The notes below the pieces were generated by a model. The model saw nothing but the letters and a program-made list of their open reading frames with translations. It made no database searches and was not told the DNA's origin. From NCBI GenBank assembly GCA_023489335.1, contig JAMDCP010000017.1, positions 1 to 64,000 on the forward strand: a DNA stretch of 64,000 nt, given 5' to 3'. Shown here piece by piece: positions 19,223-61,574 of the stretch. Source of the DNA: Deltaproteobacteria bacterium. GTDB taxonomy: Bacteria; SZUA-79; Acidulodesulfobacterales; Acidulodesulfobacteraceae. Made by a program: the position numbers and the translations under genes. Each line of letters opens with the position of its first letter. Within the stretch, counting starts at the first letter, position 1.

Positions 19223-19340
19223 TTTTTTAATTCCCCTTTTTTAAAAGGGGTGATATATTCACCTATACGATTGTCAAGGCATGCCCTTGATGCAGGTGAA
19301 TATGCCGCTTTAGCGGACTGACGGGGTATTTATAAATAAT
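19223..19340 (-). repeat. Nested palindromic element, inverted copy with extra inner hairpin
   Basis: Read on the minus strand it matches the elements at 29263, 56083 and 60542: TTATAAATACCCCGTCAGTC opens it, a hairpin GTCCGC-TAAA-GCGG follows, and CACCCCTTTTAAAAAAGGGG closes it. The inner stem is interrupted by about 48 bases that form their own imperfect palindrome (ATATTCACCT ... AGGTGAATAT with CAAGGGCATGCCTTG inside). Lies between nadC and birA; may act as a terminator for nadC. Confidence 0.7.
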
Positions 19341-28751: not shown

Positions 28752-29274
28752 TTTTATTTAAATCGTTTAAAAAATTAAATAAAAGCCCTTTTTTTTCAAG
28801 AATCATGTCGCAAACTTCTCTCACCGCGCCGCAACCCCCGCTTTTTTTCGTAACAAAATCTGCATAATCCTGCACATATTTAGGGGCATCCGGAACCGAT
28901 GCCGAAATGCCTGCCCTGTTTAAAAGTTCGATATCGACTATATCGTCGCCCATATAAAATAAATTTTTAAAATCAAGATTATAGTCTTTTAGAACCTTTG
29001 TTAAAGAGTTTAATTTATCTTTGCATCCTTCTATGTAAAAATCTACGCCCAGTTCTTTTACCCTAATGACGGCGGCATTGCTTGTCCTCGCAGAGATAAA
29101 GCCCACTTTAAGCCCCATTTTTTTTGCAAGCCTTATCCCCGCCCCGTCATGGGCAAAAAATGTTTTGGTTTCAACCCCGGACTCCGATATATGTATCTTT
29201 CCATCCGTTAATACGCCGTCAACATCAAAAACAAGAATTTTGATTTCGTTAAAATCTAAATTAAAGGTGTCCAA
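28741..29274 (-). CDS. kdsC: Kdo-8-phosphate phosphatase
   Basis: 177 residues. HAD fold without a cap: 'LVFDVDGVLTDG' with nucleophile D17 and D19, 'ISARTS' (motif II), 'YIEGCKDK' (Lys) and 'FYMGDDIVDIELL' (motif IV). 'KKSGGCGAVREVCDMIL' is typical of KdsC tetramers. Removes phosphate to give free Kdo. The only start that gives a full N-terminus is TTG 29274, with AGGA nine bases upstream; both lie in the end of the palindromic element at 29263. Confidence 0.92.
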   Translation of the reverse strand: MDTFNLDFNEIKILVFDVDGVLTDGKIHISESGVETKTFFAHDGAGIRLAKKMGLKVGFISARTSNAAVIRVKELGVDFYIEGCKDKLNSLTKVLKDYNLDFKNLFYMGDDIVDIELLNRAGISASVPDAPKYVQDYADFVTKKSGGCGAVREVCDMILEKKGLLFNFLNDLNKNGS

Positions 29275-29467
29275 TTAAATGTATCCTAATTAAATGTATC
29301 CGATTTATTTTATAAATACCCCGTCAGTCAGCCTAAAGGCTGACTGCCACCCCTTTTAAAAAAGGGGAATTAAAGACGGAAACGAGATTGAAGAGCTATG
29401 CTCGCAATAACAAATTCCTCTTTTAAAAAAAGGGGAATTATACAGGGTGTCCGATTTATTTATTTCC
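29263..29467 (+). repeat. Nested palindromic element between kdsD and kdsC (compound copy)
   Basis: Starts AAAGGTGTCCAATTAAATGT with a duplicated TAATTAAATGTATCC, then CGATTTATTTTATAAATACC, an inner hairpin GTCAGTCAGCC-TAAA-GGCTGAC, and CCCCTTTTAAAAAAGGGG. A second CCTCTTTTAAAAAAAGG arm and an inverted end GGTGTCCGATTTATTTATTT follow at 29415-29467. Between them a degraded GAGATTG...GCTATGCTCGCAATAAC motif occurs (29384-29411). Probably two insertions. Confidence 0.7.
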
Positions 29468-54347: not shown

Positions 54348-56072
54348 ATGATAGCCTATTTCGTTATGGAATGCGCCGTCGATAGCAGGATTCCTACATA
54401 TAGCGGAGGACTTGGAATTCTTGCCGGAGATACATTGCAAAGTTTTGCCGACCTTGAAGTTCCCGCTGTTTGCGTAACTCTTCTATGGAAAAGCGGCTTC
54501 ACCGGACAAAAGCTGGCAAGCGACGGGACTCAGCTTGATTCCATTCAGGAATGGGATGTCGAAAAGTATATGCAGCCCGCAAACATAAAAATTAAAATAC
54601 CTCTCGGCGGCAAAGATGTTACGCTCACCGCTTATAAATACACAATAGAATCGACAAAGGGGGATAATGAAATCGATGCTTATTTTCTCACCCCGGATGT
54701 CCCCGAAAACGACCCCGAAACAAGAAAAATATGCGACAGGCTGTATATCGAAGGGGGTTTAACCCGCCTTAAACAAGAAATAATCCTGGGCATAGGCGGA
54801 TATGAAATGCTAAAGGCGATAAAATACAAACCGTTTTTGTACCATATAAATGAAAGCCATTCAGCCTTTTTAATCGCAAGCCTTATGAAAGACATGAACG
54901 ATTTAAACAGGGTAAAATCGAGGGTGGTTTTTACGACCCATTCCCCCATCCCTGCCACTTTCGATAAATTCGCAATGAAAGATGTAGCGGCCATGCTCGA
55001 AAGATATGTGGATAAACATGTGCTTTATGAAATATATCAAGAAAAGCTTGAGGATAACGATGAACTAAACCTTTCGTGGCTTGCCATAAAAAATGCGAAA
55101 AATGTCGTGGCCGTCTCAAGAAAGCATAAATTTGTCTCGGAACAGATATTTGAAGGATACAGGCTTAAATATGTTACCAACGGCATTCACCATATAAAAT
55201 GGGCTTCCGCGCATCACAAAATGTTATATACAAAATATATTAAGGGCTGGGAGGATGACCCGGATTTACTGAGGGGCGTAGCCTGCATCCCTGACAGCGA
55301 GTTCGCTCAAGCGCATATATTATCGAAGGAATCCCTTATAGAAATGGTAAACTCCGAAAGCGATGCCTCGTTTATTCCCGAAGATTTTACGATAGCCATG
55401 GCAAAAAGGGTAACCCAGTATAAAAGAAATAATCTGATACTTTCGAATCCCAATAAATTAATCGACATAGCGGAAAGGAAAGGAAATATTCAGATTATCT
55501 TTGCGGGAAAAACCCATCCTGCCGATCCTGACGGTATAGCCATGATAAAATCTATTCATAATGCATCCCAATATATTGCGTCTAAAACAAAAAAAGTTAA
55601 GATTGCTTTTTTGGAAAATTACAACATTCATAAAGCTAACATAATATTAGCCGGCGTCGATTTATGGCTTAACAATCCTGTCAGGCCGTTAGAAGCATCC
55701 GGCACAAGCGGTATGAAGGCATCCCTTAACGGCGTTCCAAATTTTAGCGTTCTCGACGGTTGGTGGCTTGAAGCCTGCATGGAAGGAATCAACGGTTGGG
55801 GGATAGGGCCGAGGCCTGCGTGGACTGACCTCAGCTACTCGGACGATGTGCAGGATTTAAACGATATTTACGGAAAACTCGAATTTAACATACTGGATTT
55901 ATACTATAAAAATTTTTCCGATTATCTTAAAATAATGAAGATGGCGGTTTCCTCCATAGCTCCATATTTTAACACTCATAGAATGGTTTCGGAATATGTT
56001 ACGGACTTATATTTGACCGGCATAGTAATGTGCTATTTAGAGCGTGAAAAGACAGGAGTTTGCGATATGTAA
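54348..56072 (+). CDS. glgP: Compact alpha-glucan phosphorylase
   Basis: 574 residues. 'MIAYFVMECAVDSRIPTYSGGLGILAGDTL' (quoted: 'PTYSGGLGILAGDTL'), 'HINESHSAFL', 'FTTHSPIPATFDKF', 'TNGIHHIKWAS', 'KRVTQYKRNNLIL', 'FAGKTHPADP', and the PLP Lys motif 'EASGTSGMKASLNGVPNFSV' place it in the TIGR02094 branch. It breaks alpha-1,4 glucan to glucose-1-phosphate. E. coli-type enzymes exceed 800 residues; this one starts directly at the glycogen-phosphorylase core like short archaeal forms. No other glycogen gene is nearby. Confidence 0.9.
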   Translation: MIAYFVMECAVDSRIPTYSGGLGILAGDTLQSFADLEVPAVCVTLLWKSGFTGQKLASDGTQLDSIQEWDVEKYMQPANIKIKIPLGGKDVTLTAYKYTIESTKGDNEIDAYFLTPDVPENDPETRKICDRLYIEGGLTRLKQEIILGIGGYEMLKAIKYKPFLYHINESHSAFLIASLMKDMNDLNRVKSRVVFTTHSPIPATFDKFAMKDVAAMLERYVDKHVLYEIYQEKLEDNDELNLSWLAIKNAKNVVAVSRKHKFVSEQIFEGYRLKYVTNGIHHIKWASAHHKMLYTKYIKGWEDDPDLLRGVACIPDSEFAQAHILSKESLIEMVNSESDASFIPEDFTIAMAKRVTQYKRNNLILSNPNKLIDIAERKGNIQIIFAGKTHPADPDGIAMIKSIHNASQYIASKTKKVKIAFLENYNIHKANIILAGVDLWLNNPVRPLEASGTSGMKASLNGVPNFSVLDGWWLEACMEGINGWGIGPRPAWTDLSYSDDVQDLNDIYGKLEFNILDLYYKNFSDYLKIMKMAVSSIAPYFNTHRMVSEYVTDLYLTGIVMCYLEREKTGVCDM

Positions 56073-56082
56073 TTCTCAAAAG

Positions 56083-56190
56083 AAAAAGGTATCCGATTTA
56101 TTTTATAAATACCCCGTCAGTCCGCCTGAGGCGGACTGACACCCCTTTTAAAAAAGGGGAATTAAAAAAAATAAATCGGACACCTTTTTT
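56083..56190. repeat. Nested palindromic (MITE-like) element, most complete copy
   Basis: 108 bases. Terminal inverted repeats AAAAAGGTATCCGATTTATT and the complement at 56168-56189 match with one difference. Inside, CCCCGTCA opens a perfect hairpin GTCAGTCCGCC-TGA-GGCGGACTGAC, and CCCCTTTT-AA-AAAAGGGG forms a second. It lies between convergent genes, where it would also terminate transcription both ways. Confidence 0.8.
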
Positions 56191-56201
56191 ACTGTTATTG
56201 C

Positions 56202-57239
56202 CTACACATTTGGATTTATTATAATCTTTAAGGAATCCTGGGCTTTAGCCGTAAGCGCAAATCCTTCGGCAATATCTTTCAAAGGAAGCCTGTTAGTTAT
56301 CATATCTTTAACATTAACCCTTTTAGACCTTATAAGTTCAAGGGAAATCCTGTGGTCAAGTATTGAACCGGCATAGGAACTCAAAAGCGCAACCTCGGTT
56401 CTCCAGAATATTTCGTTTATGGCTAAAGGAAGTTTTGCCCCTTCGTCCGCCGCTCCAAAGAATAAAACGGTTCCGCCCCTCCTGACGGATTTAAGCCCCT
56501 GCGCAACGGCGCTGTCCGCCCCTGTCGATAAAATTACGACATCTGCCAAAAAACCGTCGTTTATTTTTTTAACCGCTTCAGGTAAATCTATATCTTTATT
56601 ACTTGCGTTAAACACATAGTCCGCCCCAAAATTCTTTGCATATTCAAGCCTTTTATCATTTATATCGGTTGCGATAATCCTGCTCGCGCCTGTCGTCCTT
56701 AAAAGATTAATATGAAGAAGTCCTGCAAGTCCGCTTCCAATAACGAGGGCTGTATCCGCAGGTTTTATGCCGGCTAATCTTTGACCCCTGACGACGCAGG
56801 CAAGCGGCTCGACAAATGTTCCCTCTTCAAAACTAACGGAATCGGGTAAAACATATACCCCGTTTTTGACATTTATTTCGGGAAGCCTTAAGAACTCGGA
56901 AAATCCCCCCGGGTCAAAGTTTGTCGACCTCAGGGTATCGCAAACGGTTTGATGGCCGCTTAAACAATATTTGCAGGTATTGCACGGAACATGGTGGGCG
57001 GCGCAAATTCTGTCCCCAACCTTATATCCCTTTACATTTTTTCCGACATTTACTATCACGCCCGCAACCTCGTGCCCCAAAACAAGAGGCACCTTATCCC
57101 TCCTATACCATTCTATTACATCGCTTCCGCAAATTCCGCTTGCCATAACCCTCATAAGAATTTCATCGCCGTTTATCTTTGGGATATCTTTTTCGATTAT
57201 TCTTATATCTTTATTGCTGTAATAAAGCGCGCAACGCAT
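56202..57239 (-). CDS. Zinc-dependent medium-chain alcohol/polyol dehydrogenase
   Basis: 345 residues. Catalytic zinc ligands in 'GICGSDVIEWY' (Cys) and 'LGHEVAGVIV' (His, Glu). A structural zinc lobe has four Cys in 'CNTCKYCLSGHQTVC'. Rossmann motif 'VIGSGLAGLLHI', then 'IATDINDKRLEYAKNFGADY'. Closest in style to sorbitol or threonine dehydrogenases; substrate unclear. Stands before the epimerase gene with a 76-base gap containing a small GC palindrome (57278-57298). Confidence 0.85.
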   Translation of the reverse strand: MRCALYYSNKDIRIIEKDIPKINGDEILMRVMASGICGSDVIEWYRRDKVPLVLGHEVAGVIVNVGKNVKGYKVGDRICAAHHVPCNTCKYCLSGHQTVCDTLRSTNFDPGGFSEFLRLPEINVKNGVYVLPDSVSFEEGTFVEPLACVVRGQRLAGIKPADTALVIGSGLAGLLHINLLRTTGASRIIATDINDKRLEYAKNFGADYVFNASNKDIDLPEAVKKINDGFLADVVILSTGADSAVAQGLKSVRRGGTVLFFGAADEGAKLPLAINEIFWRTEVALLSSYAGSILDHRISLELIRSKRVNVKDMITNRLPLKDIAEGFALTAKAQDSLKIIINPNV

Positions 57240-57315
57240 AATAAGCCACCGTATTGAAATTGTTTTATTATATAGATTCCCGCCGGAGCGGGACGGGACA
57301 TGAATTTTTTTATTT

Positions 57316-58320
57316 TCATTTAAACAGACCCATGTAATATTCTAATGTTTGTTCCAATCCTTCCTTTAACGAAAACTTTGGATTAAATCCCAGTTCTCTT
57401 TCGGCTTTAGTTATATCTGCTTGCGAATACTTTATATCTCCGTCCCTGAAAGGTCCATGCTCATATTGTATATCATTGCCGAAAAATCCCTTAAGAACCT
57501 GAACAAGTTCGTTTAAACTAACCGATTTTCCGCTTCCCGCATTATAAACATCCGCCTTTTTCTCTCCCCCGTACATTACTGCCAGAAGATTTATATCAAT
57601 AATGTCGTCAACATAGCAAAAATCTCTTGTAGTCGTTCCGTCTCCGTTGATAATAAACCTTTCGTTGCTCAAAATCTTTTTGACCCAGATTGGGATAACC
57701 GCCGCGTAAGCGGAATAAGGGTCTTGAAACTTTCCGTATATGTTAAAATACCTGAAACCTATCGACTCAAAACCAAAACTGTTAAAAAATGCCTTTGCGT
57801 ATATTTCATTGGTGAGCTTTGCGGCGCCGTAAACGGAAAGAGGCTCTCCTATATTGTCCTCTACCGACGGAATATTGGAATTAGCGCCGTAAACAGCCGA
57901 ACTCGACGCATAAATAAACCTCTTGACCCCCGAAAGCCTCGAGGCGTTAAGGATGTTAAAAAAAGCGGCATCGTTATTGGAATGAAAAAGATGCGGTTCT
58001 TTTAACGACCATGGAACAGACGCTATTGCCGCCTCATGAAAGACATAGTCTATATTTTCGGCAACATTTTTGCAAAGTTCGGGAGCGTTTAAATCCCCTT
58101 TAATAAATTTAAAAAAACCGGTTTTACCGTTTTCCTTTGCGAAATTATTAATATACTCTATATTGGAAGCCCTGCCGGTGATAAAGCTATCGACGACGGT
58201 AACGCTCTGCCCTAATTCTAAAAGCCTTAAAACTAAATTTGTCCCGACAAAGCCTGCCGCCCCTGTAACCAAAAAACTCAATTTTTTATTTGTAAACCAA
58301 TTTTTTATTTTTTCGGTCAA
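57316..58320 (-). CDS. NAD-dependent nucleotide-sugar epimerase (GalE/WbpP-like)
   Basis: 334 residues. Extended SDR: 'LVTGAAGFVGTNLVLRLLE', 'FHEAAIASVPWSLKEP', 'IYASSSAVYGANSN', the active 'YGAAK' Tyr/Lys, 'GFRYFNIYGKFQDP' and 'TTRDFCYVDDI'. Typical of UDP-GlcNAc or UDP-glucose 4-epimerases that supply LPS sugars. Its start overlaps the ClC stop by four bases (ATGA type). Confidence 0.88.
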   Translation of the reverse strand: MTEKIKNWFTNKKLSFLVTGAAGFVGTNLVLRLLELGQSVTVVDSFITGRASNIEYINNFAKENGKTGFFKFIKGDLNAPELCKNVAENIDYVFHEAAIASVPWSLKEPHLFHSNNDAAFFNILNASRLSGVKRFIYASSSAVYGANSNIPSVEDNIGEPLSVYGAAKLTNEIYAKAFFNSFGFESIGFRYFNIYGKFQDPYSAYAAVIPIWVKKILSNERFIINGDGTTTRDFCYVDDIIDINLLAVMYGGEKKADVYNAGSGKSVSLNELVQVLKGFFGNDIQYEHGPFRDGDIKYSQADITKAERELGFNPKFSLKEGLEQTLEYYMGLFK

Positions 58321-60134
58321 ATTTTTTGCCCCCCTTCTATCGTAAGCACTACATCACGTTTTCTCAAAATTCCCTCATAATTCCCGTCTTCATTAATCAC
58401 GATAAGTTCATCCGTATTTTTTCTGAAAAAGCTATGAACCGCGATATCCAATGTATCGGTTATTCTAATTCTTGGTATAAAAGACGAATCCATAATATCC
58501 TTTGCAAGCCTTGAATCATCGGGCGAGGTCAGCATTATATTTTTTATCTTGTCGTACTTAATCGTCCCGACTATTTTACCTGTTTTGTCTATGACGGGAT
58601 GCATAAAAAAATTAGAATTAAAAAAAATCTTAATCATCTCGTATAAAGGCATATCGGGGGCTATAGGCTTAGCCGCCGAACCTTCCTCCATAACATCCTT
58701 AACCGAATATCTTTGAAGCGGCTTAATCAAATAGTCTTTAAAGTGGGCGGGAGATTCCATTCTATTTCTTTTTTGCTTGGAGTAAATGCTTCTTTTGCCG
58801 CTTGCAACAAATGTTATTGCCGAAACAAGCATTAAAGGAGGCAAAAGCCCGTAACTTCCCGTCATCTCCGAAACCATCAATAATGATGAAATCGGCGTTT
58901 TTGCGGCGCCTGCAAAAAATCCTCCCATGCCTATTAGAACAAACGGCGCAATATCGGAAGCGAGTATCAGTTGCGGGAATAAAATATGAAAAATACCCCC
59001 TATTGCCCCTCCGAACGCTCCGCCTATTACCAATGAAGGAGCGTAAACCCCTGCGGAACCGCCGGAACTTATAGTAAACGAGGTAGCAACAATTTTAAAA
59101 AACCCTAAAAGTATAAGGGTTATTATGGTCAATTTTCCCAGAACGGCAAGCTGGAGCCAGCCGTAACCGACACCCATAATTTCGGGAAAAAAATAAGCTA
59201 TTATGCCGACCAGCGCGCCGCCGAGCATAGGTTTAAAGTGGGGTTTAATCCTTATCTTTTTAAAAATACCATGAACCCAGTAAAAAAATCTTATATAAAA
59301 ATTTCCCATAAAGGCAAGAAAAATCCCCAAAACTGCATAAAAAATTAGAATTACCGGCCTCGAATAGGTAAACATGGGGGTTAACACTACAGGACTAAAA
59401 CCTGCGTAAAAATAGGCATAAATGGAATATCCCACAATAGCCGCTATAATGGAAAGCATTAACGCCCCGCCTTCAAAATCCATTTCGGAATATAAAACCT
59501 CTACGCCGAACATTGCGCCTGCAAGGGGCGATTTAAAAATCGCGCCGATGCCTGCCCCTATCCCCGCAACAAGCATTGTTCTTCTATCAGGAATAGGCAG
59601 TCCCAAATAAGTTGCAAGGACGGAGCCGAATCCCGCTCCAATCTGCGCAACGGGCCCTTCCCTTCCGCCCGAACCACCCGAACCAAGCGTAACCGCGGAC
59701 GCCAGCATCTTAATTACCGGCACCCTTCCCCTGATAAACCCGTTCTTATTATGAAAGGCGTCTATAGCCGCATCCGTTCCATGCCCTTCGGCCTCGGGAG
59801 CAAAAGTGTAAACTAATAAACCGGATATAAGCCCGCCTGCCGCTATAACTAAAGGGATAACCCAGTGAATTACCGCCGCATTCGGCGGCGCCCCGGTCTG
59901 CCCTAACAGTTCGGACCTCGGAGAATAATAATGGGCCAAACTTACCTGAAATATAAACCTGAAAAGCCTTATTAACGAATTAAAAACTATGGCGCCGATG
60001 CCTGCGACAATCCCAATCAGCACCCCAAAAAAAATCCATCTCGAGAAATAAAAAATGGAATTGTCTTGAAATCTTATTATTTTTCTTTTGAGGTTTGTTT
60101 TAGCTTTTATAAATATTTTTTTCAAAGAAGGCAT
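58317..60134 (-). CDS. ClC-family chloride channel/antiporter with CBS pair
   Basis: 605 residues. Transport domain with 'EAEGHGTDAAIDAFH', selectivity loop 'GSGGSGGREGPVAQIGAG' including the gating Glu of GREGP, and 'SSGGSAGVYAPSLVIGGAFG'. Two CBS domains (about 475-600) follow ('YSVKDVMEEGSAAKPIAPDM', 'AKDIMDSSFIPRIRITDTL'), which usually bind adenine nucleotides and gate transport. Coupled to a downstream epimerase; the biological link is unclear. Confidence 0.92.
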   Translation of the reverse strand: MPSLKKIFIKAKTNLKRKIIRFQDNSIFYFSRWIFFGVLIGIVAGIGAIVFNSLIRLFRFIFQVSLAHYYSPRSELLGQTGAPPNAAVIHWVIPLVIAAGGLISGLLVYTFAPEAEGHGTDAAIDAFHNKNGFIRGRVPVIKMLASAVTLGSGGSGGREGPVAQIGAGFGSVLATYLGLPIPDRRTMLVAGIGAGIGAIFKSPLAGAMFGVEVLYSEMDFEGGALMLSIIAAIVGYSIYAYFYAGFSPVVLTPMFTYSRPVILIFYAVLGIFLAFMGNFYIRFFYWVHGIFKKIRIKPHFKPMLGGALVGIIAYFFPEIMGVGYGWLQLAVLGKLTIITLILLGFFKIVATSFTISSGGSAGVYAPSLVIGGAFGGAIGGIFHILFPQLILASDIAPFVLIGMGGFFAGAAKTPISSLLMVSEMTGSYGLLPPLMLVSAITFVASGKRSIYSKQKRNRMESPAHFKDYLIKPLQRYSVKDVMEEGSAAKPIAPDMPLYEMIKIFFNSNFFMHPVIDKTGKIVGTIKYDKIKNIMLTSPDDSRLAKDIMDSSFIPRIRITDTLDIAVHSFFRKNTDELIVINEDGNYEGILRKRDVVLTIEGGQKI

Positions 60135-60187
60135 ATATTTTTAGGAATGAAAATGCTTATTTTTAAATTAAGCATAATAAATAAAAA

Positions 60188-60262
60188 TGGCAGCCCCAAC
60201 GGGATTCGAACCCGTGTTACTGCCGTGAGAGGGCAACGTCCTAACCGCTAGACTATGGGGCC
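60188..60262 (-). tRNA. tRNA-Glu (anticodon CTC)
   Basis: Complete cloverleaf on the minus strand with encoded CCA. Acceptor GGCCCCA/TGGGGCT (G-U first pair), D arm GTCTAGCGGTTAGGAC, anticodon arm TTGCC-CTCTCAC-GGCAG with CTC at 34-36, T arm ACGGG-TTCGAAT-CCCGT, discriminator G. The anticodon reads GAG codons, the minor Glu codon in AT-rich genomes. Located 54 bases upstream of the ClC gene. Confidence 0.95.
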
Positions 60263-60307
60263 GTGGATGTTAATTATATAATATATTTAAAATAAAATAA
60301 ATAAAAA

Positions 60308-60520
60308 TTACTTTTTTATATAACCCCTTAAATATATGAATATCAACAGTATGTTTAATATAGCAAGGCCGGTAAGTTTTGAGTGAAAACCGACCGCCGT
60401 CCAGATAAAAGACGCAAGGCCGCTTATGATAAAACCGGATTTTTTATGCGAGCTTAATTGCCAAACGCCCGCTAATGTCACGGCAAATGCAAGCCAGTCT
60501 AATACATCCCAAAAATTCAA
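60308..60520 (-). CDS. Tiny three-helix membrane protein (PnuC/SWEET-like)
   Basis: 70 residues. Three hydrophobic helices (about 5-20, 27-44, 47-65) with 'GVWQLSSHKKSGFIISGLAS' and a basic end 'LRGYIKK'. The helix spacing and the 'W.L..KK..G' turn resemble half-size PnuC/SemiSWEET-type proteins, which work as dimers, but at this size the likeness could be fortuitous. Isolated between a tRNA and a repeat element. Confidence 0.5.
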   Translation of the reverse strand: MNFWDVLDWLAFAVTLAGVWQLSSHKKSGFIISGLASFIWTAVGFHSKLTGLAILNILLIFIYLRGYIKK

Positions 60521-60541
60521 TTTAATTTGCGCTCAAGGTTC

Positions 60542-60648
60542 AAAAAAGCACTGATATTTTATAAATACCCCGTCATTTTGCCTTAAAGCAAAATGACACC
60601 CCTTTTAAAAAAAGGGGAATTAAAAAAAATAAATCGGATACCTTTTTG
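60542..60648. repeat. Nested palindromic element, copy before rmlA
   Basis: About 107 bases. Right end AAAATAAATCGGATACCTTT is intact; the left end (AAAAAAGCACTGATATTTTA) is decayed. Inner hairpin GTCATTTTGC-CTTAAA-GCAAAATGAC replaces the GC-rich stem of the 56083 copy yet still pairs fully. The CCCCTTTTAAAAAAAGGGG hairpin is kept. Just past the stop of rmlA, so may terminate it. Confidence 0.75.
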
Positions 60649-60665
60649 CCTTTTTGTTATTTATT

Positions 60666-61574
60666 TTAAATCATCGATTTATTTCTATTTTTATTTTTTT
60701 CATCTGATACTATTTTTAAAATATATCCGCCGTAGCCGCTTTTAATGCATTTATTGGATAGTTCCTTCAATTCCTCTACGGATATGTAATTCATCTTATA
60801 GGCAATTTCTTCTACGCACCCGATTTTAAGCCCCTGCCTTTTTTCCATCATCTCGATAAACCTGGCTGCATCGAGGAGGCTTTCCGCCGTTCCCGTATCA
60901 AGCCAAGCGTAGCCCCTTCCAAGCGTAATGGCATTAAGCCTCCCGCGGTTTAAGTATATGTTGTTTACATCGGTTATCTCAAGTTCTCCCCTTTCGGAAG
61001 GCTTTAACTCTCTGGCTATACTTATGACATCGTTATCGTAAAAATAAACGCCCGTAACGGCATAGTTCGATTTTGGATTTTGCGGCTTTTCCTCTATCGA
61101 CAAAACTTTTCCGTCGCCGCCTATTTCGATAACCCCGTATCTTTGAGGGTCTTCGACATAATATGTAAATATGACGCCGCCCCCTTTTTTATTTATAATT
61201 TCTCTTGCGCGGTTAAATTCGTCTGGAATACCGTGCCCGTAAAAAATATTATCTCCCAAAATCAAACATACGGCATCCCTGCCTATAAAATCTTCTCCGA
61301 TGATAAAGGCTTCTGCAAGCCCGCCGGGCGAAACCTGCTCCTTATAGCTTATATTAAGCCCCAGGTCGCTTCCGTTGCCGAATATAGCTTTAAATTTATC
61401 CACATCGCCAGGGGTAGTGATTATCAAAATATCTTTTATACCAGCAAGCATGAGGGTTGACAACGGGTAATAAATCATCGGCTTGTCGTAAACGGGGAGA
61501 AGCTGTTTGCAAACGCTTAAGGTTATAGGATAAAGCCTTGTTCCGCTGCCGCCCGCAAGAATGATGCCCTTCAT
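60666..61574 (-). CDS. rmlA: Glucose-1-phosphate thymidylyltransferase
   Basis: 302 residues. 'KGIILAGGSGTRLYPITLSV' nucleotidyltransferase loop, 'KQLLPVYDKPMIYYPLSTLM', 'LILGDNIFYGHG', 'GVIEIGGDGKVLSIEEKP', 'NYAVTGVYFYDNDV' and 'GRGYAWLDTGTAESLLDAA'. Makes dTDP-glucose for rhamnose and other surface sugars. The rmlB, rmlC and rmlD genes are not adjacent. Confidence 0.94.
   Translation of the reverse strand: MKGIILAGGSGTRLYPITLSVCKQLLPVYDKPMIYYPLSTLMLAGIKDILIITTPGDVDKFKAIFGNGSDLGLNISYKEQVSPGGLAEAFIIGEDFIGRDAVCLILGDNIFYGHGIPDEFNRAREIINKKGGGVIFTYYVEDPQRYGVIEIGGDGKVLSIEEKPQNPKSNYAVTGVYFYDNDVISIARELKPSERGELEITDVNNIYLNRGRLNAITLGRGYAWLDTGTAESLLDAARFIEMMEKRQGLKIGCVEEIAYKMNYISVEELKELSNKCIKSGYGGYILKIVSDEKNKNRNKSMI

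Follow-up and report, generated by a model that had tools for sequence, protein, structure and literature searches.

A REP-like two-hairpin repeat that nests with other palindromes and shows paired stem changes, mostly exchanges of whole stems, in a draft genome of the Acidulodesulfobacteraceae

The small dispersed repeats of Nostoc (cyanobacteria) discussed by Elhai et al. in 2008 are reportedly very small, nested in one another and in minitransposons, and subject to compensatory changes that preserve their fold; an RNA intermediate is said to have been suggested for them. The repeat described here, which we call B, resembles them in size, nesting and compensated stem changes but differs in sequence, and its host yielded no reverse transcriptase. 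Closer to B are the CGTC-tagged REPs, whose groups CGTC-1 to CGTC-4 include Neisseria dRS3 and Rickettsia RPE-4/RPE-6 (Di Nocera et al. 2013, PMC3733652). Like these, B carries CGTC directly 5' of a stem (CCCCGTC in most copies), has a stem of about 8 bp with a 4-nt loop, varies in stem sequence, is intergenic, lies in some cases inside larger palindromes and lacks any known transposase of its own with the repeat at its flanks. REPs inserted in larger palindromes were known earlier from A. variabilis and H. neapolitanus (PMC3733652). The CGTC-tagged REP stem has 8–9 bp, starts with AT, encloses a loop of 4–5 nt and is followed by the tail CCA; in this genome B fits in length and loop, and has the AT start only in its TTTTGCC stem class. 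Unlike the tag of CGTC-tagged REPs, described as unpaired, the GTC of B is paired to GAC in the majority of copies, as it is across the other phyla discussed below, and is partly open in copies ending TGCC or CGCC. The tail of B is ACCCC, not CCA, and a second hairpin, CCCCTT..AAGGGG, belongs to the unit.

REPINs and GTAG REPs (Bertels and Rainey 2011, PMC3116915; Nunvar et al. 2010, PMC2817692) are, like B, short dispersed hairpin doublets. The variable part of the REPIN hairpin undergoes compensatory changes (PMC3116915), and compensatory stem changes and inverted dimers are likewise found in B, whereas the B hairpin lacks GTAG and no RAYT flanked by the element was found in the host or in 16 other carriers. 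With MITEs (NEMIS, RUP, ERIC and Nezha, listed in PMC3733652) the B family shares being non-coding, intergenic and bounded by inverted repeats, but neither a clear target-site duplication nor a parent insertion sequence was seen for it, and inverted repeats are present only for its outer palindrome, A. B appears to work like a REP or REPIN and stands close to the CGTC-tagged REPs; we do not assign it to them: its tag is paired, contrary to one of their defining features, its tail is different and it has a second hairpin. Searches of an open-access library turned up no description of the two-hairpin B frame.

The window, by which we mean the whole 64,000-nt stretch analysed (positions 1–64000 of contig C9 in a draft genome of 1.80 Mb and 21 contigs, 92% complete), contains four copies of B, with the consensus AAATACCCC-GTCA-stem-TGAC-ACCCC-TTTT..AAAA-GGGGAATTA. 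The unit is non-coding and consists of two side-by-side hairpins within a fixed C4/G4 frame, TACCCC-GTC ... GAC-ACCCC ... GGGGA(A/C)T, and the stems between these letters vary yet pair. Two constant blocks, ACCCCTTTTNAAAAAGGGGAATTA and TTTATAAATACCCCGTCA, each match the window four times, against 0.00 and 0.13 expected matches, and B is present at all four places where an element family had originally been predicted (19223, 29263, 56083 and 60542). At Rfam gathering scores a tRNA was the sole match in the window, and the B elements match no Rfam family. The features are as follows.

19228 to 19336, minus strand: B unit in which the 3' arm of hairpin 1 is replaced by palindrome C2, without outer palindrome A; the congener G002 has no copy.
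19255 to 19303, no strand assigned: palindrome C2 (ATATTCACCT..GGTGAATAT) within B; the stretches examined hold six C2 copies, always at the same joint of B.
29293 to 29461, plus strand: composite of an A half-site, B, a REP-like insert, a second AAAAGGGGAATT block and a second A half-site in the same orientation; missing from G002.
29309 to 29372, plus strand: B unit with stem GTCAGTCAGCC/GGCTGACTGCC, showing a single-pair compensation (C-G to A-T) and one T-C mismatch.
29384 to 29412, plus strand: hairpin insert GAGATTGAAGAGC..GCTCGCAATAACA, a GTCATTGCGAG-type REP, also found at loci L022 and L002.
56086 to 56186, plus strand: full nested element, in which A (18-bp inverted repeats) encloses B and folds shut over both B hairpins (z-score −10.6 as RNA, −9.7 as DNA); missing from G002.
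56116 to 56140, plus strand: hairpin 1 of the 56083 element, GTCAGTCCGCC TGA GGCGGACTGAC.
56142 to 56159, plus strand: hairpin 2 of the 56083 element, CCCCTTTTAAAAAAGGGG.
60558 to 60644, plus strand: B unit of the TTTTGCC stem class with one A half left (60627–60644, minus strand); missing from G002.
60572 to 60597, plus strand: hairpin 1 of the 60542 element, GTCATTTTGCC TTAA AGCAAAATGAC, with one inner mismatch.
60599 to 60617, plus strand: hairpin 2 of the 60542 element, CCCCTTTTAAAAAAAGGGG.

The B unit is therefore common to all four sites, whereas three traits that the original prediction had ascribed to every one of them hold only in part. Terminal inverted repeats are intact at 56083 (AAGGTATCCGATTTATTT..AAATAAATCGGACACCTT), reduced to one clear half at 60542, represented by two half-sites in the same orientation at 29263, and absent at 19223. 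The TGAC of the GTCA-stem-TGAC arm reads TGCC at 29263, and at 19223 a second palindrome takes its place. The stems, described as fully paired, are nearly so: 29263 has its T-C mismatch, 60542 an inner one, and 19223 retains no more than a short remnant.

Copies across the host genome were gathered by pattern search and retrieval of regional sequence. A strict arm pattern gave 19 matches; allowing up to three mismatches, the B head gave 58 and the tail 48, compared with 11 for a reversed head control. From 62 extracted matches, about 55 were judged by eye to be genuine B copies, more than the window alone could reveal, and their dispersal rules against one long duplicated region as their source. 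Thirty-five lie between tandem genes, 13 between convergent and 2 between divergent genes, the remainder being at locus edges or in doubtful frames. A gene-internal position, suggested for one copy (L046) by an open-ended frame, was rejected, as no start-to-stop frame of at least 150 aa spans that copy. Two neighbouring composites upstream of pilus-type genes (L053, 900–1100 and 2330–2500, corresponding to C20:142.6k and 144.0k) have in common a 70-bp segment (GGGGTGGTAGTAGGTGGATAAATAACGCTCTGAATTATTAAGC) that abuts B.

Covariation of the stems in a larger set had been named as decisive in the original prediction, and it is present. Among 26 distinct simple B copies, compared with shuffled and slid controls, 93.4% of cells were paired against 83.4% after shuffling, and the covariation score was 0.328, with shuffled controls scoring 0.146 ± 0.017 and slid ones never above 0.113. 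The number of extra pair types was not raised (9 observed versus 10.4), since a single block change supplies most of the signal: GTCC/GGAC is swapped for TTTT/AAAA between the stem classes GTCCGCC and TTTTGCC, and none of the 26 copies has exactly two of the three block-changed pairs. Apart from this swap, about five compensations affect single pairs (one each at columns 11, 13 and 15, two at column 17), and several changes are uncompensated, including T-C at column 11, the second pair, in 10 of the 26 copies; pairing of the outer arm is therefore not strictly required. The swap is clearest between the composites at C20:142621 and C20:144037, which match exactly over about 70 bases on one flank and nearly so over about 25 on the other, and differ substantially in the stem alone. 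The paired change is real, and it is mostly an exchange of whole stems.

The original prediction had read such change as selection on the fold or as the work of an enzyme that recognises structure. Structure is indeed kept while stem sequence varies, in this genome and more strikingly across phyla, but the covariation within this genome consists mostly of whole-stem block exchange with little stepwise compensation. Template switching has been reported to create and to mend stems (PMC8794818), and it or recombination can yield block swaps without selection on the fold. A neutral origin, in which recombination between copies and template switching within hairpins keep stems paired with neither selection nor a fold-reading enzyme, could well be right, although we lean slightly against it. 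It accommodates covariation that is mostly one three-pair block (GTCC to TTTT) with no two-of-three intermediates, and composites that differ almost only in the stem. It leaves unexplained the dispersal of the copies and the conserved C4, GTC/GAC, C4, G4 frame of distant phyla, and mismatches at two outer pairs have spread unmended through many copies. A neutral origin of pairing and mobility of the repeat can both hold: the neutral reading addresses only why the stems pair.

For mobility, comparison with the congener G002 is informative. At all seven alignable B sites of contig C9, G002 has no B, in flanks of about 79–92% identity. The gap in G002 is nearly clean at 19223 (the best site), 60542 and 73389; the other counterpart sites hold short or long unrelated sequence in the place of B. 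The B head had no copy in 60 relatives, including three congeners, and the tail was not found in 29 family members, both as exact patterns, which diverged copies could escape. Gain in the host species is the simplest reading, since B is absent from all other family members searched, and loss in G002 is possible for any single site. The copies thus look like recent insertions, apparently a recent expansion in one species, and the congener comparison strongly suggests that B is, or was, mobile.

Nesting, as originally predicted, describes the family correctly: many B copies lie within an older palindrome, A, and two further palindromes, C1 and C2, sit at fixed joints inside the B stem. A (AAGGTRTCCGATTTATTT..AAATAAATCGGAYACCTT), whose end pattern was located genome-wide, stands alone at four places and encloses B at others; B occurs without A in two further flank contexts. 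C1 (ATCTTTGCCTGC..GCAGGCAAAGAT) always splits the 5' arm of the B stem immediately past GTC, and C2 (ATATTCACCTG..CAGGTGAATAT) always splits the 3' arm; a single B copy, at L061, has both. A relative of C1 was found within a GTCATTGCGAG-type REP at L038, and inverted B dimers with a common hairpin 2 are present in the host genome. At L022, L039, L060 and L081, tandem partial A ends lie 5' of A, with AAAAGGTATC repeated a few bases ahead of AAGGTATCCGATTT, which looks like the outcome of several insertions of A at its own end. Half-sites of A (AAGGCGTCMGATTTATTTATTCCC or close variants) run into a repeat, CACTCCCGCTTGTATCTGCGGGGTAGGGG, in one orientation only at positions 127, 2999, 4212, 4275 and 4424 of the window, and similar stretches are found at C9:69617 and C9:81987 and in G002.

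These boundaries bring to mind a MITE of the DDE type, in which an insertion sequence since lost would have had A as its terminal inverted repeat, with B as mere cargo, a reading that would lead one to expect an insertion sequence with AAGGTRTCCGATTT ends. About ten elements are indeed bounded by 18-bp inverted repeats, and four of them have no B inside. We nevertheless consider it unlikely, given that B is found without A in many places in the host, in two further flank contexts, and in the genomes of many phyla. The target-site duplications that had been proposed as a check never exceed 3 bp around A (0–3 bp at about ten A-bounded elements), a weak test because the ends are A/T-rich.

The arm pattern, scanned over GTDB species genomes, returned 92 stretches, and 83 matches were read. 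A GGGGAAT tail, which was not part of the pattern, follows 53 of the 83. In these the inner stem is fully paired in 51 of 53 cases, with 134 inner pairs against 17.7 after shuffling (0/2000); among the 30 untailed matches, many of them in coding-looking sequence, inner pairs are absent from 19, and a few, with a variant tail, resemble true members. Judged by their record titles, the tailed matches come from Ignavibacteria, Bacteroidales, Rickettsiales and other Alphaproteobacteria, Endomicrobia, Atribacteria, Omnitrophota, Desulfobulbus, Chryseobacterium and Bacillota; the B frame occurs with unrelated yet paired stems in about eight other phyla. When the A of GTCA was freed, 13 genomes gave 2 to 146 exact matches each, and the reversed control gave none. 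Across 65 distinct hairpins from these 13 genomes, 84% of inner positions were paired compared with 53% when arms were re-dealt; this chance figure ignores relatedness, and hairpins of related copies are not phylogenetically independent. The richest carrier, the Rickettsiales MAG Nl494_bin11 (G066), has 146 exact core matches in 0.9 Mb and combines long and short types of hairpin 1 with three types of hairpin 2 in several ways within one frame; at C5:105027–105281 it has short tandem B runs with alternating second hairpins. In an Ignavibacteria MAG (G063; for example C8:63694 and 63756), inverted pairs of B cores with two different stems lie about 60 bp apart, like REP heterodimers.

That these matches converge on a generic palindrome motif instead of forming one family seems improbable to us. 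Stems do differ among genomes, and the scan pattern already specified the outer C4/GTC(A) and GAC/C4 letters; the GGGGAAT tail and the second hairpin lie outside the pattern and still follow 53 of the 83 matches, and these have paired inner stems, which are rare among the other 30; the reversed pattern has no match in the carrier genomes. Least credible, and in our view improbable, is that selection keeps the copies at the ends of genes as ordinary intrinsic terminators: they are intergenic, mainly between tandem or convergent genes with few between divergent ones, they fold strongly and A ends in a T run, but B is species-specific within the family searched and missing at the congener's matching sites, terminator-like matches in 55900–60800 are no commoner than in shuffled sequence, and near-identity across unrelated sites together with nesting requires copying.

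The reading we favour, as somewhat more probable than the reverse, is that the window holds four members of a REP-like mobile repeat whose stems are reshuffled by recombination and which a hairpin-acting enzyme mobilises in trans. A TnpA-REP acting on the copies had been proposed as something to look for, and none could be linked to them. In the host, a draft 92% complete from which a gene may be missing, PF01797 matches only a tnpA beside tnpB (IS200/IS605) and a fragment; one intact tnpA-tnpB pair of IS200/IS605 and one broken tnpA beside an intact tnpB are found at L070 (C16:9818) and L071 (C8:260341). Among 16 other carriers, including MAGs that may be incomplete, eight have a Y1 gene, and none of their 23 Y1 loci is flanked by the B core; at one, in the copy-rich genome, a tail-like hairpin lies at a distance of about 1 kb. 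A RAYT or TnpA-REP was accordingly rejected as the mobiliser, there being no association in the host or the 16 carriers. The host's own IS200/IS605 was set aside as a candidate trans mobiliser, its ends, judged by eye, showing no C4/GTC frame. Also rejected were an RNA intermediate, reverse transcriptase being absent from the host draft (92% complete) and from most carriers, and viral spread, the B core having no exact match in a viral contig collection. Carriers of CGTC-tagged REPs may likewise possess Y1 enzymes, none of them flanked by the repeat, and the pattern of unflanked Y1 genes around B agrees with that report (PMC3733652).

Under the favoured reading, trans mobilisation with stem reshuffling, an enzyme encoded elsewhere, or since lost, would read the C4, GTC/GAC and G4 blocks as a folded single strand, by analogy with the HUH/Y1 enzymes that act on REPs and on IS200/IS605 ends. 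It would place B into A/T-rich intergenic sites and into hairpins already present, with no duplication of the target. Since pairing alone would count within the stem, stems could drift, and template switching or recombination at shared modules could swap them as blocks. After insertion, copies probably behave like any other 3'-end hairpin and are tolerated by the host.

We know of no enzyme for CGTC-type palindromes. A broader proposal, which we regard as doubtful, would make B a family of two-hairpin mobile repeats that spans phyla. Its mobiliser would recognise the fixed frame and whether a stem is there, whatever the sequence of that stem; the family would spread between lineages by horizontal transfer and burst in single species with neither a RAYT nor a reverse transcriptase of its own, and its mobiliser would be the system, so far missing, that moves CGTC-type palindromes. 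B is also a warning that a paired change in a repeat may be a swap of blocks, in which case raw covariation overstates selection on structure. With an apparent recent burst, a congener without counterparts and a carrier with 146 matches, the B family offers a tractable case for CGTC-type palindromes, and its natural library of paired stems suggests that a mobiliser would need the letters of the frame, not those of the stem.
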